NCBI RefSeq assembly: GCF_027912455.1
Contig: NZ_CP115446.1
Span: 2,627,501-2,691,500, forward strand
Direction of reading: 5' to 3'
Origin: Aurantiacibacter sp. MUD61
GTDB lineage: Bacteria > Pseudomonadota > Alphaproteobacteria > Sphingomonadales > Sphingomonadaceae
Length of the DNA stretch: 64,000 nucleotides
The stretch's first letter is position 1. Every line of letters begins with the position of its first letter. A program made the position numbers and the translations under genes. The notes under the pieces were generated by a model. The model made no database searches. It saw only the letters and a list, made by a program, of their open reading frames with translations, and was not told where the DNA came from. This document shows positions 17,683 to 60,318 of this stretch, in pieces.

Positions 17683-18411
17683 CTAACGACACAGGCCAGC
17701 AGGTGGGCCACGGCTCTGGTCGAGGTGGAAATGGTCCGCGTGGGCGGCATTGTATTCGGGCGAGAGGACAATCCCGAAATTGAGACAAGCGCTGTCACGC
17801 ACCGCGCGCAGAAAGCGGCCACGATCCTCGCCATCGCCCCAATCATTCAGCACCGAAACGCGCGTTCCATCCCCGAGCACAAAGGCAGAAATGTCGATCG
17901 CATTGCTCGTCGCATGCTGGCTCCAGCGGCCGTCATCGCCTCCGCCAACGCGCCGACAATTATACGTCCCGAGCTGCTCGACGCGTGACACAGCCGATCC
18001 AAGCATTTCTTCTGCAAGCGGTCCGACATCCTTCGCCAGCCATTGGCTAAGGCTGACCGCAACTGTGCAGGTCATCTCTGGATTGGCCGGCGTGAGCGGC
18101 GATTCAGGCAGCACCAGCCTGTTTTCCCGGCGACACGCGCCATCTCCTGCAGGTTCCAGCATCGTATAAGTGATATCGCTGCGCTCGAGCACTGCATTAC
18201 AGGCGGCAGGATCCGAACGCAGGGCGCCAATTTTCATAGCTGTCGCCCATCCGCGCGGATTGTCGAGATCGAGCGGTGCCCATGGATTGTGCTGCGGATG
18301 GTCTTCCAGCCAGGCGCGTCCGTAGACGAATGCTGCAGCGCCCGCGGCCAGCAGGACAAGCAATTTCACGATTCGCCGCATCCCGCTCGGTTTTGCTTTG
18401 CCCCCGGCCAT
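17683..18411 (-). CDS. Extensin-family (Extensin_C, M15-like) protein
   Basis: A 242-residue membrane-anchored or secreted protein with one N-terminal hydrophobic segment (about 12-30, 'IVKLLVLLAAGAAAFVYG') and an Extensin_C domain. The fold is related to M15 D,D-carboxypeptidases, with likely metal-ligand regions 'SQHATSNAIDISAF' and 'HADHFHLD'. Paired cysteines ('AACNAV', 'GACRREN', 'MTCTV', 'YNCRRV', 'SACLNF') suggest periplasmic disulfides. A role in peptidoglycan trimming is inferred, not shown. Its ATG shares a base with the dnaE2 stop (TGATG), so it is translationally coupled as the last gene of the LexA-boxed operon. Confidence 0.85.
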   Translation of the reverse strand: MAGGKAKPSGMRRIVKLLVLLAAGAAAFVYGRAWLEDHPQHNPWAPLDLDNPRGWATAMKIGALRSDPAACNAVLERSDITYTMLEPAGDGACRRENRLVLPESPLTPANPEMTCTVAVSLSQWLAKDVGPLAEEMLGSAVSRVEQLGTYNCRRVGGGDDGRWSQHATSNAIDISAFVLGDGTRVSVLNDWGDGEDRGRFLRAVRDSACLNFGIVLSPEYNAAHADHFHLDQSRGPPAGLCR

Positions 18412-21400
18412 CAGTGAAAGTCCCGCGATTTGGGAATGATCCGCACGTTGCGCGGATGTCCGCCCTTGCTGCCGCTCAGCTGGTCAATCAGGTCGCGCGG
18501 TTTGATTGCGCCCTCGGCTGCTTCCACCGCCCTGCCCTTACCCGGAGGCAGCGGGCTGGTGACATGATCTGCCCGCGCGAGCGGCGCGTTGAGCATGTCA
18601 TCGGAAAGGCGGTGAAGTTCGGGTGTCGCGTCGGTCATATGCTGGGCGATGACATGGATCACTTCGTCATCATATTCCACCCGTCCGCGCACTTCCATCA
18701 ATCGCGACCCCATAACGACGCGGCGCTGCTTCTCCTTGAGATCGGGCCACACGACGAGGTTGATGACGCCCGTTTCATCCTCCAGCGTGATGAAGCACAC
18801 ACCCTTCGCGCTGCCCGGCCGCTGGCGAATCAGCACCACGCCCGCGACATGCACCATGCTGCGGAACTTGCGGTCCCTCAGGTCGCAGGCGCGCACGAAG
18901 CCACGCTGGGCAAGGCTGGCACGCAGGAAGGCCATCGGATGCGCCTTCAGGCTGAGCCGCGTGGTCTGGTAATCGGCCACGACTTCCTCCGACAAGGGCA
19001 TTTTCGGCAGGATCGCGCGGCCCCGCTCCGCGCCCTCATCCCGCTCGTCTGCATGCAGGAAGAGCGGCAGATCCTCCCCGCCAACCAGGCTGCGCGCATC
19101 CCACAGGGCCTGACGCCGCGACAAATCCATCGAAGTGAAGCAATCCGCACTCGCAAGGCGCTCGATATGCGCAGGGGAAAGCCGCGCCCGGTCGCGCAGT
19201 TCCGCCACATCGGCAAAGGCCCCTTCCTGCGCCCGCGCCGCCAGCAGGTTTGCCGCGACATGTTCGGGCAAACCATCCACCTGCCGCAGGCCGAGGCGCA
19301 GGGCGATGTGTTTGTCGGCACGGCCTTGCACTTCGCCATCACCCTCTGAGGCCCACCCCGCTTCGCTAAGGCTCACCTGCGGTTCGCCAAGCTCCACTGC
19401 CCCTCCCGCATGCGGGAGGGGATTACGAGACTTGGCAGCTTGCTGCCTAGTCGCAGTGGGGTGGGCATCCGCCAGCCGCAATTCCTCCAAAGTACAATCC
19501 CACTCGCTGTGGTTCACATCCGCCGGCAGCACCGTCACTCCATGCTCGCGCGCATCGCGCACGATCTGCGCCGGGGCATAAAATCCCATCGGCTGCGAAT
19601 TGAGCAACCCGCAGGCAAACGCAGCCGGGAAATGGCATTTGAGCCAGCTCGACACATAGACCAGATGCGCGAAGCTGGCGGCGTGGCTTTCGGGAAAGCC
19701 GTATTCGCCAAAGCCGCGGATCTGGTTGAAGCAGCGCTCGGCAAATTCGCGGTCGTAGCCGCGCGTCACCATCCGCTCGACCATCATGTCCTGCAATTCG
19801 TCTACCATGCCGCGGCTGCGGAACGTCGCCATCGCCTTGCGCAGGCGGTTCGCCTCCTTGGACGAGAATTTCGCCGCATCGAGCGCGATTTTCATCGCCT
19901 GTTCCTGGAAAATCGGTACCCCCAGCGTCCGTTCGAGGATGCTGGACAACTCGTCTGGCGGGCCGTGCTGCGGACTGGGCGCAGGGATCACCACTTTCTC
20001 CGCGCCGCGCCGTCGCTTGAGGTAGGGATGCACCATATCGCCCTGGATCGGACCGGGGCGCACGATGGCGACTTGGATCACCAGATCGTAGAATTCGCGC
20101 GGGCGCAGGCGCGGCAGCATGTTCATCTGCGCGCGGCTTTCCACCTGGAACACGCCCAGCGAATCGCCCTTGCGCAGCATGGCATAGGTTTCAGGGTCCT
20201 CACGCGGCACGCTGGCGAGCGTCAGCGGGCGATCATGGTGATCTTCCAGCAGGTCGAGGCATTTCTTGATGCAGGTGAGCATGCCCAGCGCCAGCACATC
20301 GACTTTCAGGATGCCGAGCGCCTCGATATCGTCCTTGTCCCACTCGATGAAGCTGCGATTAGGCATGGCGCCATTGCCGATGGGCACGGTCTCCGTCAGC
20401 GCGCCTTCGGTGAGGATAAAGCCGCCGACATGCTGCGAGAGATGTCGCGGCATTCCAACCATTTGCTTCGTCAAAGTGAGAACGCGCCTGAGGTGCGGAT
20501 CGCTCAAATCCATGCCCGTTTCAGCGGCGTGATCCTCACCGATTTCCTTACCCCATCCGCCCCATACGGTGCGCGCGAGAGCGCTGGTGACATCTTCCGA
20601 CAATCCCATCGCCTTGCCGACTTCGCGGATGGCCATGCGCGGGCGGTAATGGATCACCGTCGCAGTCAGCCCGGCACGGTGGCGGCCATATTTGCGATAA
20701 AGATACTGGATCACCTCCTCGCGCCGCTCATGCTCGAAATCGACATCGATATCGGGCGGCTCCTTGCGGTCTTCCGAGATAAATCGATCGAACAAAAGCT
20801 GGTGATGCGCCGGATCAACATTGGTAATGCCGAGGCAGAAACACACTGCCGAATTGGCCGCGCTTCCCCGCCCCTGGCAAAGGATCGGCGGATCGACCTG
20901 CGTGCGGGCGAAATCGACGATATCCTGAATAGTGAGGAAATATCGCGCGAGATCCATCTTCGCGATCAGCGCCAGTTCTTTCTCCAGCGTGGCGAAGACG
21001 CTGTCCGGGATACCGTGCGGATAGCGCTCCTGCGCGCCCCAGAAGGTGGAGCATTCGAGATATTCCTGCGGTCCCATGTCGCCCGGATATATCTCGTCCG
21101 GATATTCGTAGCGCAGCTCATCCAGGCTGAAATTGCAGGCATCGGCCACATCCCGCGTCGCCTGGATCGCCTGCGGCCACGCGGCGAACAGGCTCAGCAT
21201 TTCCTCGGGGCTTTTCAGGTGCCGTTCGGCATTGGCATGGAGAAGGTGCCCGGCGGCAGCCACAGTGGTCTTGTGCCGGATCGCCGTCATCACGTCCTGC
21301 AACGGGCGCCGTTCGGCAGCGTGATAATGCACATCATTGGTCGCCAGCAGCCGCAATCCGTTGGCGCGCGCGAGCATGTCGAGCCTGTCGAGCCGGGCGA

Positions 21401-22127
21401 TGTCATTGCCGCGATAGAGGAAGCTCGCCGCGATATGGCGCATGGTGGGGAGCGTGCGCACAAGGTGGGGGAGAATGTCGGGGAATGGGGCTGTTATGTT
21501 CTGCGGTGCGAATAGACGGCCATCATTACTCCCCTCCCGTTCGGGGACAGCCTCTTTCTCACGCTCACTTCGTTCGCGCCCACCCCTAACCCCTCCCGCA
21601 AGCGGGAGGGGGATGACGTTGCTCTTCACTTCTATTGTAAACTCCGCACCCAAATCATCGGGCGGGATAAGGATCAGCTGCACATCCTCGCTATGCTCGG
21701 CCAGCATCATGAGGCTGATTTCGCACGCGCCTTTCTCCTGCCACTCGCCATCCAGCGTGGACATCCGCCCTGCACTGATCAGGCGGCAAAGGCGGCCATA
21801 GGCGGTGCGGTCTTTGGGATAGGCGAGGAACGCTAGGCCCTCTGTCGTTTCGATCCGCGTGCCGATCACCGGGCGCAGTTTGAGCGTTTTCGCTTCCGTA
21901 TGCACGCGCACCACGCCGGCCATGCTGTTGGCATCGGCAATCCCGATGGCGTCATAGCCAAGCTGCCGCGCGGCCAGTACGAGGTCCACCGCATCGGAGG
22001 CTCCGCGCAGGAAGCTGAAGCAGGACACGATCCCCAGCTCGACGAAAGGCGCGCGCGGCGGTGCGTCGATCGTGTCGGGATCGAGATCGATTGTGCGCTT
22101 GGGCTGGACGAGGTCGTTTTCAGGCAT
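18411..22127 (-). CDS. dnaE2: Error-prone DNA polymerase DnaE2 (ImuC) with in-frame repeat inserts
   Basis: Catalytic subunit of the SOS mutasome; with ImuA and ImuB it copies past DNA lesions. The 1238-residue protein has the PHP domain ('SCFSFLRGASDAVDLVLAA' near 36), polymerase palm blocks ('CQGRGSAANSAVCF', 'PPDIDVDFEHERREEVIQ'), the helix-hairpin-helix region and the C-terminal OB domain ('FITLEDETGVINLVVWP'). It is longer than the usual 1050-1100 residues because of two repeat-derived inserts, 'NVIPLPLAGGVRGGRERSE' and the segment around 'SRNPLPHAGGAVELGE'. The start is taken as the ATG of MPENDLVQ; the open frame upstream reads through a palindromic repeat. It is third in an operon after udgX. 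Confidence 0.93.
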   Translation of the reverse strand: MPENDLVQPKRTIDLDPDTIDAPPRAPFVELGIVSCFSFLRGASDAVDLVLAARQLGYDAIGIADANSMAGVVRVHTEAKTLKLRPVIGTRIETTEGLAFLAYPKDRTAYGRLCRLISAGRMSTLDGEWQEKGACEISLMMLAEHSEDVQLILIPPDDLGAEFTIEVKSNVIPLPLAGGVRGGRERSEREKEAVPEREGSNDGRLFAPQNITAPFPDILPHLVRTLPTMRHIAASFLYRGNDIARLDRLDMLARANGLRLLATNDVHYHAAERRPLQDVMTAIRHKTTVAAAGHLLHANAERHLKSPEEMLSLFAAWPQAIQATRDVADACNFSLDELRYEYPDEIYPGDMGPQEYLECSTFWGAQERYPHGIPDSVFATLEKELALIAKMDLARYFLTIQDIVDFARTQVDPPILCQGRGSAANSAVCFCLGITNVDPAHHQLLFDRFISEDRKEPPDIDVDFEHERREEVIQYLYRKYGRHRAGLTATVIHYRPRMAIREVGKAMGLSEDVTSALARTVWGGWGKEIGEDHAAETGMDLSDPHLRRVLTLTKQMVGMPRHLSQHVGGFILTEGALTETVPIGNGAMPNRSFIEWDKDDIEALGILKVDVLALGMLTCIKKCLDLLEDHHDRPLTLASVPREDPETYAMLRKGDSLGVFQVESRAQMNMLPRLRPREFYDLVIQVAIVRPGPIQGDMVHPYLKRRRGAEKVVIPAPSPQHGPPDELSSILERTLGVPIFQEQAMKIALDAAKFSSKEANRLRKAMATFRSRGMVDELQDMMVERMVTRGYDREFAERCFNQIRGFGEYGFPESHAASFAHLVYVSSWLKCHFPAAFACGLLNSQPMGFYAPAQIVRDAREHGVTVLPADVNHSEWDCTLEELRLADAHPTATRQQAAKSRNPLPHAGGAVELGEPQVSLSEAGWASEGDGEVQGRADKHIALRLGLRQVDGLPEHVAANLLAARAQEGAFADVAELRDRARLSPAHIERLASADCFTSMDLSRRQALWDARSLVGGEDLPLFLHADERDEGAERGRAILPKMPLSEEVVADYQTTRLSLKAHPMAFLRASLAQRGFVRACDLRDRKFRSMVHVAGVVLIRQRPGSAKGVCFITLEDETGVINLVVWPDLKEKQRRVVMGSRLMEVRGRVEYDDEVIHVIAQHMTDATPELHRLSDDMLNAPLARADHVTSPLPPGKGRAVEAAEGAIKPRDLIDQLSGSKGGHPRNVRIIPKSRDFH
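19351..19466. repeat. Palindromic repeat inside dnaE2 (copy 1)
   Basis: An inverted-repeat element of about 116 bases: outer arms GCCCACCCCGC / GCAGTGGGGTGGGC, inner hairpins CCCTCCCGCA-TGCGGGAGGG (19401-19420) and GACTTGGCAG..CTGCCTAGTC. It is related to the gap-pgk intergenic copy at 52161. It is translated in frame within dnaE2. Confidence 0.85.
21529..21613. repeat. Palindromic repeat inside dnaE2 (copy 2)
   Basis: Contains CCCCTCCCGC-AAGCGGGAGGGG (21590-21612), CACCCCTAACCCC and a second short hairpin TCCCC..GGGGA (21530-21547). It is read in frame as 'LPLAGGVRGGRERSE' and following residues in the segment before 'AASFLYRGND' of the PHP domain. Confidence 0.8.
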
Positions 22128-22140
22128 GTGAAACACCTCG

Positions 22141-22228
22141 CTCGTCCTGAGCCTGTCGAAGGACCGCTTTTCTTCAGGCGTCACGCGAGAAGTGAAGAAC
22201 GCCCCTTCGACAGGCTCAGGGTGAGCGG
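22141..22228. repeat. Inverted pair of GAGCCTGTCGAAGG repeats between udgX and dnaE2
   Basis: CTCGTCCTGAGCCTGTCGAAGG (22141-22162) and CCCTTCGACAGGCTCAGGGTGAGC (about 22204-22227) face each other over about 40 bases. The pair fills the 103-base udgX-dnaE2 gap and could fold as a long hairpin in the message. Confidence 0.85.
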
Positions 22229-22229
22229 A

Positions 22230-23678
22230 TCAGGGGGCCTCCGCCATCTGGTCCAGCCGTTCCCGCACCGCCGTAAGGTCTGCCGCAAACAGGCGTTCCT
22301 GTTCGTCCGCCGCATCGCCATCGAGGCGCAGGAGGTAAGAGGGATGCACCGTCACCCACAGCTCGCTGCCATCCTCAAGAGCGATCGGCGTGCCGCGCAC
22401 CTTGTTCACACTCACCGTCTTGCCGAGCAGGCTGCGCGCGGCAGAGGCACCCAGCGCCAGCACCAGTTTAGGCTTCACGATGGCGCGCTCGGCCTCCTGC
22501 CACCAGCGGCAGGTGTCGATTTCCTTCGCGGCGGGGGACTGGTGGATGCGGCGTTTGCCGCGCTGGACGAATTTGAAATGCTTCACCGCATTGGTGAGAT
22601 AGGCTTTCTCGCGCACAATCCCGGCGGCGGAGAGATGCTCGCTCAGCACCTGCCCTGCAGGGCCGACGAAGGGACGCCCGGCCATATCCTCCTTGTCGCC
22701 CGGCTGCTCGCCAACGATCATCAGAGGCGCATCGCGTGGCCCCTCGCCCATAACCGCATGGTTTTCGAGACTGCCGATGGGGCAATTGCGGCATCCGGCA
22801 ATCGCTTTGCCAATCGCCTCCAGCGTATCGGGCCGCGCGGCAAATTCCGATTTGCCTTCCGCCACCATGGATCCCTCGCGCCCCTGCGCCCCGGCAATCA
22901 GCTCAGGGATGAGCTCCGCCTCGGGCATGTTCTTCCAATATTTCTTCGGCATTTCTTTCAGCATCGCGCCGATCTTGAGCCGCGCGGGGTTGAAGATGGA
23001 AGCATAATATTTGCGCCAGAGATCCTCCGCCGGATCGCCGCTGGGCGCGTCCGATTTCTGCGCTGGAGGGCCTTCGCACAAAGTCTCCGTGTCCCAGTAC
23101 AGGCTGCCGCGCGGGGTGAGGATCGACCAGCGCATATTGGCGAAGCGGCGCACGAAAAAGCCCGCCTCGCGCCGCAATATGTGGTGCTCGGGCTCGAACC
23201 AGGCGACGTAATGCTCGCCCGCCTCAGGCTCATCGCCCTCCTCCACCAGCCTGAAGCGGACGAAAGCGTGCATCTTGTGCGCATCGCGCCGCACTGCCTT
23301 ATCGAGTTCCTCCACCCGGCGGATATCGGGATCGGCCTTGTCCTCCATCATCCGCGGGTTGGACTGGAGCCGCCACAGCAGGCGATAGAGCAGCGCGAAA
23401 CGCTCCGGGTCCGAGTGGTGGATCGCGGTTTTGGCGAGGCTCACGAAGCGCTTGCTCGCGCGCACCATGCGGTTCGGGTCTTCGGGCACAGGCATCCGCC
23501 GGTCACCGTGAGAAAACAACGATCCGGTACCGCCCGGCTCCACCCATGCCACCCGGTCGGGCGGCACATCGCACTGGACAAGCGACCGCGCCCGCTCCCG
23601 CCAGAAAGCAAAATCGTCATGGCTTGGCATGTTGACCACGTAATAGGTGCCGAGTTTCACGTGCTGGAGCGCGGTCAT
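22230..23678 (-). CDS. udgX: DUF4130 fused to UdgX-type uracil-DNA binding protein
   Basis: The 482-residue protein combines two modules. Residues 1 to about 250 resemble the DUF4130 family of DNA-metabolism proteins ('ERFALLYRLLWRLQSNPRMM', 'HKMHAFVRFR', 'WSILTPRGSLYWD'). Residues about 280-482 are a family-4-like uracil-DNA glycosylase with cysteines for an Fe-S cluster ('GCRNCPIG'), 'VGEQPGDKED' and the UdgX-specific 'KRRIHQ' loop (near 373). In UdgX the loop His forms a covalent bond to the uracil site, a suicide repair reaction. It overlaps the radical SAM gene by ATGA and precedes dnaE2, so it is SOS-linked. Fe-S binding and chemistry are inferred from family knowledge. Confidence 0.92.
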   Translation of the reverse strand: MTALQHVKLGTYYVVNMPSHDDFAFWRERARSLVQCDVPPDRVAWVEPGGTGSLFSHGDRRMPVPEDPNRMVRASKRFVSLAKTAIHHSDPERFALLYRLLWRLQSNPRMMEDKADPDIRRVEELDKAVRRDAHKMHAFVRFRLVEEGDEPEAGEHYVAWFEPEHHILRREAGFFVRRFANMRWSILTPRGSLYWDTETLCEGPPAQKSDAPSGDPAEDLWRKYYASIFNPARLKIGAMLKEMPKKYWKNMPEAELIPELIAGAQGREGSMVAEGKSEFAARPDTLEAIGKAIAGCRNCPIGSLENHAVMGEGPRDAPLMIVGEQPGDKEDMAGRPFVGPAGQVLSEHLSAAGIVREKAYLTNAVKHFKFVQRGKRRIHQSPAAKEIDTCRWWQEAERAIVKPKLVLALGASAARSLLGKTVSVNKVRGTPIALEDGSELWVTVHPSYLLRLDGDAADEQERLFAADLTAVRERLDQMAEAP

Positions 23679-24916
23679 CCGAACAGCTCCAGCTGCTCCT
23701 GCTTCGGAGCCAGCAGCGCGCGCAAATCGGCGCGGTCGGTCAGGGTGAGCGGCCGCCAGTCCACCGTGCAGATGAAGGGCCGTACCTTGGTGATCGAGAC
23801 GGTGAGCTTCGCCACATCGTCCAGCCGCAGCGTGCGGTGACGTCGTGACGCCAGAATTTGCCCGACGGCGCGTGTTCCCAGGCCCGGCACGCGCAGCAGC
23901 TGCTCTTTCGAGGCGCGGTTGACGTCGACCGGGAAGCTGTCGCGGAATTTGAGCGCCCAGGCGAGTTTCGGATCGATATCGAGCGGCAAATTCCCATCCG
24001 CCTCGGTCGCCTGCATCACTTCCTTGGGCGCGAAACCGTAGAATCGCATCAGCCAGTCCGACTGGTACAGCCGGTGCTCGCGCATCAGCGGCGGGCGCTT
24101 CAGCGGCAGCACGGCGCTGGCATCGGGAATGGGCGAGAAGGCACTGTAATAGACGCGTCGCAGCTTGAAACTGTCATACAGGCGGCTCGCCTTGCCCACG
24201 ATATCGCTGTCGGTCGCGGCATCGGCACCGACGATCATCTGCGTCGACTGGCCACCCGGCGCAAAGCGCGGTGCGTGTTTGAAGCGCTTTTTCTCATCCT
24301 TCGCCTGCCGAATCGCCATCTTGACCCCGCCCATCGCGCCTTCGATCTGGCGGCTGTCCTTGTCGGGCGCGAGGCGAGTGAGCCCGGCATCGGTCGGCAG
24401 CTCGACATTGATCGAGACGCGGTCGGCATAGAGCCCCGCCTGATGCACCAGCTGCGGATCGGCCTCTGGAATCGTCTTCAAATGGATATAGCCGCGAAAG
24501 TCGTATTCATCGCGCAGGATACGCGCGCATTCGACCATCTCCTCCATCGTGTGGTTGGAGCTCTTGATGATGCCGGAGGAGAGAAACAGCCCCTCGATAT
24601 AATTGCGGCGGTAGAAAGTGATCGTCAGGTCCGCGACCTCACGCGGGGTGAAGCGCGCGCGGCGCACGTTCGAGCTCTTGCGGTTCACGCAGTAGTGGCA
24701 ATCGAAAATGCAGTGATTGGTCAGCAGGATCTTCAAAAGCGAGATACAACGGCCATCGGGCGCATAGGCGTGGCAGATGCCCATCCCCTCGGTCGATCCG
24801 ATCCCCTTGCCATTCTTGCTGTTGCGCTCCGCCGTTCCCGAAGACGCGCAGGAAGCATCATACTTCGCCGCATCGGCGAGGATTTCGAGCTTCTGAATAG
24901 TGTCGAGTGCGGGCAT
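23675..24916 (-). CDS. Putative DNA modification/repair radical SAM protein
   Basis: A 413-residue radical SAM enzyme of the family annotated as putative DNA modification/repair protein, usually found beside DUF4130/UdgX. The cluster motif 'CIFDCHYC' (CxxxCxxC, about 68-75) binds the 4Fe-4S cluster that cleaves S-adenosylmethionine. 'GLFLSSGIIKSSNHTMEEM' and 'SINVELPTDAGLTRLAPDK' follow. The C-terminus holds a helix-hairpin-helix ('LLRVPGLGTRAVGQIL', about 345-360), which suggests DNA binding. Reaction and substrate are unknown. The ATG lies 7 bases after a -10 that sits inside a LexA box, so the message may have no 5' leader. It is the first gene of the operon. Confidence 0.92.
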   Translation of the reverse strand: MPALDTIQKLEILADAAKYDASCASSGTAERNSKNGKGIGSTEGMGICHAYAPDGRCISLLKILLTNHCIFDCHYCVNRKSSNVRRARFTPREVADLTITFYRRNYIEGLFLSSGIIKSSNHTMEEMVECARILRDEYDFRGYIHLKTIPEADPQLVHQAGLYADRVSINVELPTDAGLTRLAPDKDSRQIEGAMGGVKMAIRQAKDEKKRFKHAPRFAPGGQSTQMIVGADAATDSDIVGKASRLYDSFKLRRVYYSAFSPIPDASAVLPLKRPPLMREHRLYQSDWLMRFYGFAPKEVMQATEADGNLPLDIDPKLAWALKFRDSFPVDVNRASKEQLLRVPGLGTRAVGQILASRRHRTLRLDDVAKLTVSITKVRPFICTVDWRPLTLTDRADLRALLAPKQEQLELFG

Positions 24917-24918
24917 TT

Positions 24919-24951
24919 GTTCCTTATATGTTCTTACGCCGGATTCGCCAA
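24919..24951 (-). promoter_or_regulatory. LexA box overlapping promoter of the radical SAM-udgX-dnaE2 operon
   Basis: GTTC-CTTATAT-GTTC (24919-24933), the alphaproteobacterial LexA site GTTC-N7-GTTC. On the minus strand a promoter TTGGCG-N17-TATAAG has its -10 (24928-24923) inside the box. The start point is predicted at or next to the A of the ATG. Confidence 0.88.
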
Positions 24952-25150
24952 GACCTTTCCCGCATCCCCAGCGTCGGAACCATTGCCCGCCGTCCGAATT
25001 GTATGGGCAAGCGTGTCGCCCAAGCGATGCGCGCGTACCGGGCCCCTCTGGCGAGCCATGCTCGTGATGTCGGACGCAGCTGAACGGGGCACCGCCCCCA
25101 GTGAGAGGGGCAGAGAAAAAATTCCTCCCCTCGCAACAGAGTTGGAGAGA

Positions 25151-25888
25151 ATGATGAAACTTCTTGCTTACACCGCCGTAGCCGCACTGATGGCTATCCC
25201 TGCAATGGCGCAGGAGAAGGACTGGAATTTCGGCGATGGTGTCGATGACGAACGCTGGTCGCTGATCAATAGCGATTACGGCATGTGCGATGCCGGCCTC
25301 AACCAGTCGCCGATCGATCTTGGCGCTCCCAATGCGCGCGGCGATATCGCATTGACGACCAATTTCGGCAGCACCACTGGCACAATGGCTCTGGGCGAAG
25401 AGAAGGTGCAGGTAAATTTCCCCGAAGGCATGGGCATGACTTCGGGCGGCATCGAGTTCAACCTGATCCAGGTCCACTTTCACACCCCGGCCGAGCACTC
25501 CATCGATGGTGAGCGTCAGCCGCTGGTTGCACACTTCGTACACGCCACTGACGATGGTCGCCTCGGCGTTCTGGGCGTGATGTTCGAAGAAGGCGAAGCC
25601 AACCCCGCACTCGCCGCCATCATGCCGCATCTGGGCGACAACGATGTGCACAATGGCATGGATGTCAGTTTCGATGTGAATGACATGGTGCCCGATGATC
25701 TGAACGTGTTCCGCTACATGGGCTCACTCACCACCCCGCCGTGCAGCGAGGGTGTGAACTGGCACGTGGCCGATGAAACCATGACCGCCAGCGTCGAGCA
25801 AATCCGCGCTATGTATGCCTCGCTCGGCCCGACCGCACGTTCGCTGCAACCGCAGGGCAATCGACTGGTCATTGCGCCGGAAGACTAA
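25151..25888 (+). CDS. Periplasmic alpha-type carbonic anhydrase
   Basis: Zinc enzyme that interconverts CO2 and bicarbonate in the periplasm. The 245-residue precursor has a signal peptide (MMKLLAYTAVAALMAIPAMAQ) followed by the alpha-class pattern: 'NQSPIDL', zinc-ligand segments 'QVHFHTPAEHSIDG' and 'VAHFVHA', and 'SLTTPPCSEGVNWHV' with the substrate-pocket Thr and the second half of a disulfide (first Cys in 'YGMCDAGLNQSPI'). Spacing and length match bacterial alpha-CAs. GGAGAG precedes ATG 25151; ATG 25154 is equally possible. It is divergent from the SOS operon and ends in its own terminator, so it is probably monocistronic. Confidence 0.93.
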   Translation: MMKLLAYTAVAALMAIPAMAQEKDWNFGDGVDDERWSLINSDYGMCDAGLNQSPIDLGAPNARGDIALTTNFGSTTGTMALGEEKVQVNFPEGMGMTSGGIEFNLIQVHFHTPAEHSIDGERQPLVAHFVHATDDGRLGVLGVMFEEGEANPALAAIMPHLGDNDVHNGMDVSFDVNDMVPDDLNVFRYMGSLTTPPCSEGVNWHVADETMTASVEQIRAMYASLGPTARSLQPQGNRLVIAPED

Positions 25889-50952: not shown

Positions 50953-52152
50953 TCAGGCGGACAGCGCCGCGACGCCGGGAAGTTCCTTACCTTCCATCCA
51001 TTCTAGGAAAGCGCCGCCTGCGGTCGAAATATAGGTCACATCATCCGCCACACCCGCATGGGCAAGCGCGGCTACGGTGTCACCGCCACCGGCCACCGAG
51101 ACCAGCGCGCCGGCCTGGGTCAGCGCGGCAGCGGTCTTGGCGAGCGATACCGTTGCTTCATCGAATGGCGGCGTTTCGAAGGCACCCAAGGGGCCGTTCC
51201 AGACCAACGTGGCGCAGGTCTTGAGCACGTCGCCCAGCGCTTCGACCGCCTGCGGCCCGACATCGAGAATCATCTCGTCTTCGGCGACTTCGTGGACATT
51301 GCAGGTGCGCAGGCTCTGCGGATTGGCGGCAAATTCCTTGGCCACCACGACGTCATACGGCAGGTGGATCGTGCACCCCGCTTCGTCCGCAGCATCCATG
51401 ATTGTGCGCGCCGTATCGGTCAGATCGTGCTCACACAGGCTCTTGCCGACATTCACGCCGTTGGCGGCGAGGAAAGTGTTTGCCATCCCGCCGCCTATGA
51501 TCAGGTGCTGCACCTTGCGGCTGAGGTTTTCCAGCACGGCGAGCTTGGTGGAAACTTTCGCCCCGCCCACGACAGCAGCAACCGGCGGATTGGGCGTGCC
51601 GAGCGCGGCATCGAGAGCTTTCAGTTCCTTCTCCATCGCGCGGCCAGCATAGGCGGGCAGCAGCTTCGCGAGACCCTCCGTGCTCGCATGGGCGCGGTGG
51701 GCGGCGGAGAATGCGTCATTTACGTAGAAGTCGCCATTCGCAGCGATACCTTTTGCGAACTCAGCGTCATTCGCTTCCTCGCCTGGCCAGAACCGGGTGT
51801 TTTCCAGCAGGCCGATATCGCCATCGCTGAGGATGCCGACCGATTGCTCGACCACCGGTCCCATGACCTCGGGGATAAACATCACCTCGCGGTCGATCAC
51901 GCGTTCGATATCGCCCTGCACCATGGACAGGCTCATCGTCGAATGGCGTTCACCCTTGGGCCGACCGTAATGTGCGAGAAGCAACACTTTCGCCCCGCGA
52001 TCCGCGAGTTCGAGGATGGTGGGCGCGACAGCCGTGACACGGGTCAGGTCCGTCGCCCGCCCGTCTTTCATCGGCAGGTTCAGATCGACCCGCACCAGCG
52101 CGCGCTGGCCGGACAGATCCTGCGGCAGATCGTCGAGGGTTTTGAAAGTCAT
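50953..52152 (-). CDS. pgk: Phosphoglycerate kinase
   Basis: Cytoplasmic enzyme that transfers phosphate from 1,3-bisphosphoglycerate to ADP in glycolysis. The 399-residue protein has the two-lobe layout. Substrate site motifs 'ALVRVDLNLPMKDG' and 'LLLAHYGRPKG' lie in the N lobe (the usual SHLGRP reads AHYGRP), 'NDAFSAAHRAHAST' nearby, hinge 'KVSTKLAVLENL', and nucleotide site 'NGPLGAFETPPF' and 'VSVAGGGDTVAAL' in the C lobe. It is third in tkt-gap-pgk, with a 183-base gap before it that is filled by palindromic repeats. Confidence 0.95.
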   Translation of the reverse strand: MTFKTLDDLPQDLSGQRALVRVDLNLPMKDGRATDLTRVTAVAPTILELADRGAKVLLLAHYGRPKGERHSTMSLSMVQGDIERVIDREVMFIPEVMGPVVEQSVGILSDGDIGLLENTRFWPGEEANDAEFAKGIAANGDFYVNDAFSAAHRAHASTEGLAKLLPAYAGRAMEKELKALDAALGTPNPPVAAVVGGAKVSTKLAVLENLSRKVQHLIIGGGMANTFLAANGVNVGKSLCEHDLTDTARTIMDAADEAGCTIHLPYDVVVAKEFAANPQSLRTCNVHEVAEDEMILDVGPQAVEALGDVLKTCATLVWNGPLGAFETPPFDEATVSLAKTAAALTQAGALVSVAGGGDTVAALAHAGVADDVTYISTAGGAFLEWMEGKELPGVAALSA

Positions 52153-52160
52153 AAATCATC

Positions 52161-52234
52161 CCCTCCTCCCCCTTGACGGGGGAGGGATACGAAGGCTTGG
52201 CGGCTTGTCCGCCTAGCCGGAGTTGGGTGGGGGT
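52161..52234. repeat. Palindromic repeat between gap and pgk (family copy)
   Basis: Hairpin CCTCCCCCT-TGA-CGGGGGAGG (about 52165-52185), a second hairpin GGCTTGGCGG-CTTGT-CCGCCTAGCC, then GGAGTTGGGTGGGGG. It closely follows the layout of the dnaE2 copy at 19400-19466, including the shared run CTTGGCxGCTTG and GCCTAGxCGxAGT. Confidence 0.85.
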
Positions 52235-56093: not shown

Positions 56094-56268
56094 GGCGGGA
56101 CTGCCCGGTACGATCTGGAGTGAAAATCCCTGAGGCTATAAGCAAATACAAGGGAGCTGTCCCTGCCCGGTGTACCAGTTCGGCTGTGGCATCGGTGCAT
56201 ATGGCGCCCACCTGACGTTGAGGCGTCAGAGGATTTCCAGGAAAACGGCCCATGGTGGTTCCGCCACT
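56094..56268 (+). ncRNA. ssrS: 6S RNA
   Basis: The roughly 175-base zapA-to-cyclo-ligase spacer has a closing stem (GGCGGGACTGCC at 56094 with GGTGGTTCCGCC ending at 56265), the long near-duplex expected of 6S RNA and the 5'-side block AATCCCTGAGGCTATAAGC, which matches the conserved CCCUGAG segment of proteobacterial 6S RNAs. 6S RNA binds sigma-70 RNA polymerase holoenzyme and mimics an open promoter. Ends are estimated. Confidence 0.85.
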
Positions 56269-58965: not shown

Positions 58966-60318
58966 TCAGCCCGCCAGAATGCGTGCCGGGGCCTCGATCA
59001 TTTTCTTCACTTCCTGCACGAATGCAGCGGCGTCATAGCCATCGACAACCCGGTGATCGCAGCTGATCGAAATGTTCATAAGCTTGCGCTTTTCCACCCG
59101 CTCGCTGCCGTCAGGCTGGGTCACGAACATCGGGCGTTCGACGATGCGATTCGGGCCGATGATAGCGACTTCCGGCCGATTGATGACCGGCGTTGTCGCA
59201 ACACCGCCCAAAGGGCCGAGCGACGTAATTGTCAGCGTCGAGCCGGAAAGCTCTTCCGACTTCGCGCTGCCATCGCGCGCGGCGTTGGCGAGGCGCTGGA
59301 TGTCATTGGCGAGCTGGTACAGGTTCTTGCCCTGCGCATCGCGAATGACAGGGACCATCAAGCCGTTATCGGTCATCGTCGCCATGCCCAGATGCACACT
59401 GCCGTGGCGCGTCACCACCTTCGCCTCGTCATCGAAGCGGGCGTTGATCATTGGGAAATCGGGCAGCACCTTGCAGATCGCGGTGATCAGCAGCGGGAGC
59501 ATGGTGAGCTTGGGCTTGTCCCCGCGATTGTCATTGAGCTGCGCGCGGGTGCGCTCCAGCTCGGTCACATCGCATTCCTCAACATAGGTGAAGTGCGGAA
59601 TGTTGCGCTTGGCTGCTGCCATGTTCTCGGCGATGCGCTTGCGCAGGCCGATGACTTTGATTTCCTCGTCCGCACGCGCCTTTCCGGCTCCGGCATAGCC
59701 GCCCGAATAGGAAATGAAGGCGTCGAGATCGGCATGGCGCACACGGCCGTCCTCAGCCGCTTTCACCTGCGCGAGATCGATACCCATGTCGCGTGCGCGC
59801 TTCCGCACGGCGGGAGTGGCGAGGACCTTGGAACTATCGCCGGAGTCCGTTCGTGCTGAGCTTGTCGAAGCGCGATATTCCGACGTTTCGTCTTTTCGCC
59901 CTTCGACAGGCTCAGGACGAGCGGGTGTGGGTTCTTCGGGAGCCGCCTTCGCCGCATCTTCTTGGTCAGACGGATCGGGATTTTCGACTTCGATGCGCTT
60001 TTCGACTTCTTCGTCCTTCGGCGCAGGCGCAGCTTCGGCAGCTTCTGCCTCTTCAGCCACATCGTCAGGCACTTCGCCTTCGACTTCGATCACGAAGATC
60101 GGGCTGCCGATGGCGACCATGTCGCCAGCTTCGCCAGCGATCTCGACGAGCTTGCCGGTCACCGGGCTTTCCAGCGGCACGGTGGCCTTGTCGGTCATCA
60201 TGTCGACGACTTCTTCGTCTTCCTCGACACGGTCGCCGACCTGCTTTTGCCAGGTGACGATTTCCGCTTCGGTGATGCCTTCACCGATGTCGGGCATGGG
60301 GTGCGAGTAACGTGCCAT
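58966..60318 (-). CDS. bkdB: Branched-chain 2-oxoacid dehydrogenase E2 (lipoamide acyltransferase), repeat in linker
   Basis: Core acyltransferase of the branched-chain alpha-keto acid dehydrogenase complex. The 450-residue protein has a lipoyl domain with the lipoylated Lys in 'MMTDKATVPLE' (Lys 44), a long linker, an E1/E3-binding domain ('LATPAVRKRARDMGIDLAQV'), and the catalytic domain ending in 'SISCDHRVVDGYDAAAF' (His and Asp of HRxxDG). The linker contains a 76-base inverted-repeat pair read in frame ('ARPEPVEGRK' and 'YRASTSSARTD'). It begins 5 bases after E1-beta. The neighbours identify it as a BKD rather than a pyruvate dehydrogenase E2. Confidence 0.92.
   Translation of the reverse strand: MARYSHPMPDIGEGITEAEIVTWQKQVGDRVEEDEEVVDMMTDKATVPLESPVTGKLVEIAGEAGDMVAIGSPIFVIEVEGEVPDDVAEEAEAAEAAPAPKDEEVEKRIEVENPDPSDQEDAAKAAPEEPTPARPEPVEGRKDETSEYRASTSSARTDSGDSSKVLATPAVRKRARDMGIDLAQVKAAEDGRVRHADLDAFISYSGGYAGAGKARADEEIKVIGLRKRIAENMAAAKRNIPHFTYVEECDVTELERTRAQLNDNRGDKPKLTMLPLLITAICKVLPDFPMINARFDDEAKVVTRHGSVHLGMATMTDNGLMVPVIRDAQGKNLYQLANDIQRLANAARDGSAKSEELSGSTLTITSLGPLGGVATTPVINRPEVAIIGPNRIVERPMFVTQPDGSERVEKRKLMNISISCDHRVVDGYDAAAFVQEVKKMIEAPARILAG
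59849..59924. repeat. Inverted repeat pair inside the E2 coding sequence
   Basis: TGCTGAGCTTGTCGAAG (about 59854-59870) and CTTCGACAGGCTCAGGA (about 59901-59917) face each other over about 30 bases. They are the same unit as the pair between udgX and dnaE2, here translated within the E2 linker. Confidence 0.88.

Follow-up and report, generated by a model that had tools for sequence, protein, structure and literature searches.

Palindromic repeats that become translated parts of proteins are best known from Rickettsia, in which Ogata et al. reportedly described the Rickettsia palindromic elements (RPE) in 2000 and 2002. In the excerpts of PMC10969869, RPE are repeated palindromes, about 100-150 bp long, that lie in intergenic DNA but also, in frame, inside genes whose functions are unrelated. 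The same excerpts describe bacterial MITEs as short, non-coding and dispersed, with a terminal inverted repeat. According to excerpts of PMC3733652, many intragenic REPs of the GTAG and CGTC superfamilies lie in DNA repair genes, including those of DnaE2 and UvrA, and tRNA synthetases are among the REP-bearing proteins of E. litoralis. The recB REPs of X. campestris and X. oryzae are there placed at about the same site, whereas other genes of the category differ in site.

We analysed a palindromic element carried in frame by the dnaE2 gene of Aurantiacibacter sp. MUD61, which encodes an error-prone DNA polymerase. An earlier note on this DNA had likened it to RPE, and the likeness was supported, a genomic palindrome being inserted in frame. 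The palindrome size is similar (116 nt for the copy called insert B, although the canonical element mostly has 82-84 nt). The genes hit in frame are likewise unrelated (dnaE2, glyS, pccA, uvrA and those of an ABC ATPase and ValS-type synthetases, with products known from sequence). The differences are a GC-rich host outside Rickettsia, the concentration on one gene at two fixed sites, and an intragenic share of about 9% (13/139 among the matches listed), against nearly half in R. conorii according to the excerpts of PMC10969869. On this comparison by description, the best reading is that the element works like an RPE yet does not belong to the RPE.

The element was also compared with GTAG/CGTC REPs. 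The gene classes hit are the same (DnaE2, UvrA and tRNA synthetases, as in the excerpts of PMC3733652). The element differs by its length (mostly 82-84 nt, range 78-95, against a stem-loop of 20-40 nt for REPs) and by its foot. GTAG or CTAC was found anywhere in 4 of 32 copies, and CGTC or GACG in 2 of 32. REP families lacking a resident RAYT are known. The absence of any match to the RAYT-type transposase profile (Y1_Tnp, PF01797) in the MUD61 genome is therefore a weak difference; as a control, the same profile gave matches in 5 of 14 genomes. Like MITEs, the element is short, non-coding and dispersed, with terminal inverted repeats (GCCCACCCC/GGGGTGGGC), but 31 of the 32 distinct canonical copies lack a target-site duplication of at least 2 nt. 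REPs in DnaE2 are already in print (PMC3733652, in excerpts), and the new part, which sets the present case apart from the REPs described there, is that unrelated families have repeatedly come to occupy the same two DnaE2 loops. In the literature searched, whose scope left out most subscription papers, we recognised no account of fixed DnaE2 sites being reused by repeats.

The dnaE2 locus and its two inserts

The window, a stretch of 64,000 nucleotides, covers positions 2627501-2691500 of the single-contig genome (2.97 Mb). The following features were delimited in it.

18411..22184, minus strand: dnaE2 open reading frame, 1257 codons from a GTG, with Pfam matches
19351..19466, minus strand: insert B, palindromic element of 116 nt reading AHPTATRQQAAKSRNPLPHAGGAVELGEPQVSLSEAGW, in the loop that links WDCTLE to ALRLGLRQ
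19351..19399, unstranded: second long arm of insert B, making the copy head-to-head; mostly absent from the closest relative, G024 (48 nt, in frame)
19400..19421, unstranded: central hairpin of insert B, CCCCTCCCGCATGCGGGAGGGG, of a type common to insert A and intergenic copies
19422..19466, unstranded: first long arm of insert B; arm plus hairpin match three genomic copies elsewhere at 88-90% identity
21504..21611, minus strand: insert A, repeat-derived in-frame stretch reading PLPLAGGVRGGRERSEREKEAVPEREGSNDGRLFAP, 36 codons in a loop of the PHP domain
22133..22230, unstranded: inverted repeat formed by a CGTCCTGAGCCTGTCGAAGG pair, directly 5' of the likely dnaE2 ATG
52165..52231, unstranded: diverged relative of the element, lying between the PGK and GAPDH genes (gap-pgk spacer)

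The dnaE2 frame matches the Pfam models PHP, DNA_pol3_alpha, finger, HHH_6 and OB. From the alignment with relatives, the likely start is the ATG at 22127, which would give 1238 residues. The in-frame palindromic repeat that the earlier note had placed at 19351-19466 was confirmed by its arms, its fold, the open frame and the Pfam matches. The near-palindromic arms lie at 19348-19372 and 19445-19469. RNA of the region 19345-19472 folds at -73.9 kcal/mol, versus -52.4 +/- 3.9 for 200 dinucleotide shuffles (z -5.5), and in the dnaE2 frame insert B comprises 38 complete codons and two further bases. The hairpin CCCCTCCCGCNNGCGGGAGGGG has two mismatch-free matches in the window, at 19400 and 21590, with 0.04 matches expected by chance even when three mismatches are allowed. 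Insert A belongs to the same repeat family as insert B, in the same DnaE2 protein, and its hairpin part (21578-21611) shows 88-100% identity to other genomic copies over full-length matches. Both insert segments are probably translated.

A gain of about 60 residues had been proposed. The stretch from WDCTLE to ALRLGLRQ does have 60 residues here, but 19 DnaE2 proteins of the same genus without an assigned repeat keep 4-23, and 116 nt predicts about 40; the net gain is therefore only about 40 residues. In structure models of fragments (31 sequences; pTM 0.39 for the C-terminal model), strands 162-167 and 209-214 bracket insert A, whose blocks are at pLDDT 51-71. Insert B lies between strands 38-41 and 100-103 (fragment numbering), with blocks at 37-65, and the blocks flanking both inserts are well predicted (89-97). 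The fragment models thus place both inserts in loops, B just ahead of the helix-hairpin-helix domain, and these loops are predicted to be mostly disordered. Sequence alignments with solved homologues skip both insert regions.

Other elements were noted around dnaE2. The CGTCCTGAGCCTGTCGAAGG inverted pair, perhaps a CGTC-type REP pair, lies upstream of the likely ATG and offers an alternative N-terminal reading, RSFDRLRTS; one of its arms recurs at window positions 59900-59931. The imuA-imuB pair is the expected neighbour of dnaE2. The upstream stretch 22230-25651 contains no such pair; it encodes a protein that joins DUF4130 to a uracil-DNA-glycosylase, as well as a radical SAM protein that carries an HHH motif. 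An Rfam scan of the window at the gathering threshold gave five matches, none at the element; they include terC RNA (25030-25081, plus strand) and 6S RNA (56095-56265, plus strand).

Form, copies and genic share of the repeat family

Searching the MUD61 genome with the insert B element gave 38 match rows at 16 distinct places, the closest relatives being 88-90% identical over 65-66 nt. The gap-pgk copy, presented in the earlier note as the closest relative, is indeed the best within the window (the best tile outside the element starts at 52101 with a score of 35, followed by 28 at 21501), but closer copies lie elsewhere in the genome. The family occurs in at least 23 of 31 genomes of the genus. 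Its canonical form was drawn from 32 distinct full-length sequences and runs GCCCACCCCGCTGCGACTA, a variable stem, AAGTCTCGCT, the hairpin CCCCTCCCGCNNGCGGGAGGGG and TTGGGGGTGGGC, with the foot GCCCACCCC/GGGGGTGGGC. A consensus fold of 28 of these copies predicts three stems. In insert B, a second long arm in inverse orientation replaces the short 3' arm, which makes this copy the head-to-head form. Covariation was considered as a sign of a functional RNA and discarded as support, because the 28 copies are too alike (both-sided change in just 2 of 23 consensus pairs). A stop-free design of the element was also rejected: its frames are open at the level given by base composition (64% over six frames, 65% in shuffles).

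To what extent these repeats lie in genes was evaluated genome by genome. Two of the 16 places in the MUD61 genome are intragenic and both fall in dnaE2, since the hairpin of insert A is also inside this gene. The wider survey comprised 128 loci (16 own, 112 fetched) from 21 genomes and covers the matches listed, more copies existing. Among these matches, a home-made hexamer score used in place of curated gene calls sorted 139 distinct places into 13 intragenic, 6 possibly intragenic, 1 at a contig edge and 119 outside genes. Six of the 13 intragenic copies are in dnaE2 (sites A and B in G000 and in G024, A in G015, B in G008), and they represent about four independent events, the G000 and G024 pairs being due to shared descent. 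The other seven are in genes for the glycyl-tRNA synthetase beta subunit (two), biotin carboxylase/PccA, an ABC ATPase, UvrA and two ValS-type synthetases; host genes were called by Pfam, which assigns the latter to class I, their type being read by eye. One place scored as possible and kept outside the 13 (L175) proves by Pfam to lie in a PccA gene.

Some of these hosts show repeated use of a site. The family lies at apparently the same site, judged by eye, in the glycyl-tRNA synthetase beta genes of two genomes (L151, L170), and at apparently the same site in pccA of two genomes (L168, L175). These may be further hot spots or shared old insertions. In the ValS-type synthetases (L226, L305) the family is in frame at two different places in two genomes.

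A second, unrelated family, of the CGCAGAGG type, was found in 5 of 31 genomes (complete list), with 25 places in 18 stretches. Three of these places are intragenic, all in dnaE2, and two more possibly so; two fragments at site B of G020 were scored as outside genes though they lie within dnaE2. Both families were picked because they are present in dnaE2, which biases the dnaE2 shares. When G000 and G024 are left out, dnaE2 holds 2 of 8 intragenic copies of the first family, with a probability near 5e-5 if the target is taken as 3.7 kb out of 2.7 Mb; when G022 is left out, the share for the CGCAGAGG family is 1 of 1. A binomial estimate for 4 of 9 events in dnaE2 gives 4e-10, a value that ignores the bias of family choice and rests on a preliminary tally.

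Two DnaE2 loops as recurrent insertion sites

We compared DnaE2 sequences from 80 loci and 27 sequences of the genus, four being common to both sets. Long inserts cluster at two places: site A, after SNV(I/V)P in the PHP domain, and site B, between WDxTLE and AxRLGLRQ, where the loop has 2 to 100 residues among relatives. The earlier note had named the same insert in distant DnaE2 proteins, without the nucleotide repeat, as contrary evidence; none was found, 15 distant sequences (L093 to L108 without L102) being short at both sites (17 residues at A; 7 at B in 14 of them and 19 in one). Relatives with long inserts mostly hold other repeats and not the insert B peptide. The insert DNA was sorted by eye into types unrelated to each other.

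Present family, at site A of further DnaE2: L057, L059, L084, L089 (Novosphingobium or Sphingomonadaceae)
Palindrome of the CGCAGAGG type in DnaE2: L051, L057, L063, L065, L073, L074, G020, G022
Repeat of the GTCACCCCGG type in DnaE2: L032, L035, L048, G009
Repeat of the GTCATGCTGAAC type in DnaE2: L083
Repeat of the CGTCCTGAGC type in DnaE2: L109

Folding stronger than in shuffles (z < -2) was found for 13 of 14 long B segments and 13 of 23 long A segments. The same threshold was passed by 4 of 110 control stretches taken from these genes and, among short segments, by 3 of 36 at A and 4 of 29 at B. A clear hairpin signal is absent from the other 10 long site-A segments. Five site-A inserts were searched against their own five genomes, and four had further copies outside dnaE2 among the matches listed; the L051 insert had none outside the two dnaE2 sites of its genome among those matches. 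Searched against the flanks of the DnaE2 loci, the inserts gave few matches because these flanks are short.

Within the genus, assigned repeats occupy site A in 6 and site B in 7 of the 26 DnaE2 sequences readable per site. Fitch parsimony on a 27-leaf tree counts five changes at A and six at B, with gains and losses merged, labels assigned by eye and the incomplete sequences L121 and L276 entered as empty. Longer site-A loops of 31 and 44 residues (L120 and L118) were left unassigned, and L130, with a repeat-like HSREGGNP piece at site B, was tallied as empty. The replicative paralogue DnaE1 has hardly any such inserts: 24 of 29 genus sequences align over their whole length, their spans differing from the expected 3465 nt by at most 6, and three of the 29 have a loop of 27-28 residues after residue 305. 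An extra loop in the L266 DnaE1 looks like an alignment artefact and was rejected. The DnaE1 of G020 (L267) contains a 28-residue loop with the REP-like peptide EEQSFDKLRT, which resembles the other repeat near dnaE2.

Age, constraint and competing explanations

Both inserts are also present in G024, the closest relative found (97% protein identity), where insert B is 48 nt shorter by an in-frame difference. On the next branches of the tree, G042 (support 0.66) and G022, the present family is absent from both sites; dnaE2 of G022 holds another repeat family. Alignment thus dates insert B as present in the sister and absent from most sampled congeners. G046 (L272) shares with the window the 5' junction of site B (GAT followed by GCCCACCCC), the reading frame and a similar 3' flank, and site B of its own sister, G045, is empty. 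This common junction may mean that one point was used more than once, or it may go back to old history.

Comparing the window with G024 over the 63 insert codons gives 11.5 nonsynonymous and 3.5 synonymous differences (dN/dS 1.19, from one pair and small numbers), versus 28.3 and 219.7 in the remaining 1154 codons of dnaE2 (dN/dS 0.03). The polymerase is therefore strongly constrained and the insert peptide unconstrained. The inserts do not drift like free neutral DNA, however, since their dS is far lower than in the other dnaE2 codons (0.07 vs 0.31); their total divergence, 15 of 189 sites, is well under the synonymous rate. Eight orthologous family copies outside dnaE2 also differ at few positions (30 of 783 sites), so that the DNA of the repeat evolves slowly whatever its location. 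This hints at DNA-level constraint or homogenisation, beyond simple tolerance.

We consider it likely that REP/MITE-like palindromes, normally intergenic, are tolerated in two DnaE2 loops with the frame kept. A head-to-head copy would have entered dnaE2 in the stem lineage of the MUD61 species and its sister, at the tip of a beta-hairpin that directly precedes the helix-hairpin-helix domain, and in a phase that kept the frame open. Another copy of the family would have entered the PHP-domain loop as insert A. The insert-bearing polymerase presumably keeps its activity, as the loops would be exposed and disordered. The hot spot would then reflect the tolerance of two loops, with insertions elsewhere purged, and not a benefit.

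An unlikely alternative is that a single old insertion at site B was followed by many losses instead of repeated gains. The features shared by G046 and the window, which are distant on the tree, and the in-frame 48-nt difference of G024 speak for it. Palindromes are deletion-prone, and this would ease losses. Losses would however be needed in many intervening lineages, including the sister of G046, and neither the unrelated families at site B (G022, G020) nor the site-A cases would be explained. It is highly improbable that dnaE2 is no longer functional and for this reason accumulates insertions, as two inserts in one gene might suggest, given its complete set of domains and the constraint seen outside the inserts in comparison with the sister species. 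An ordinary conserved insertion domain of DnaE2, with an incidental DNA palindrome, is scarcely credible: an open frame and good conservation of both flanks would fit, but DNA copies lie between genes, distant DnaE2 sequences have no such stretch and the length of the site B loop varies among relatives.

Tolerance alone leaves the excess of dnaE2 over other genes unexplained. Capture in dnaE2 could instead be favoured, if longer disordered loops or an mRNA hairpin tuned the polymerase or its partners, or if insertion were drawn to the gene. The share of dnaE2 among intragenic copies (6 of 13 for one family among the matches listed, 3 of 3 for the other) and the use of two fixed sites by unrelated families would fit. 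We hold this to be quite unlikely, as inserts vary in sequence and length between lineages, dN/dS is about 1 in the one pair compared, 19 of 26 congeners have no repeat at site B and no common peptide motif was seen among the inserts. Still more of a long shot is the specific form in which selection or targeting makes dnaE2 a capture site: the two loops of this SOS mutator polymerase would be refilled again and again by whichever palindrome is active in a lineage, and mutagenesis would change through the linker or the mRNA hairpin.

The free-living Erythrobacteraceae and other Sphingomonadales offer natural replicates, with unrelated repeats in the same two loops and empty sister genes as controls. 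Whether such repeats are tolerated junk or raw material for proteins becomes testable by comparison and simple genetics. The finding is also a warning: where such proteins seem to have stretches peculiar to one species, these may be translated repeats.
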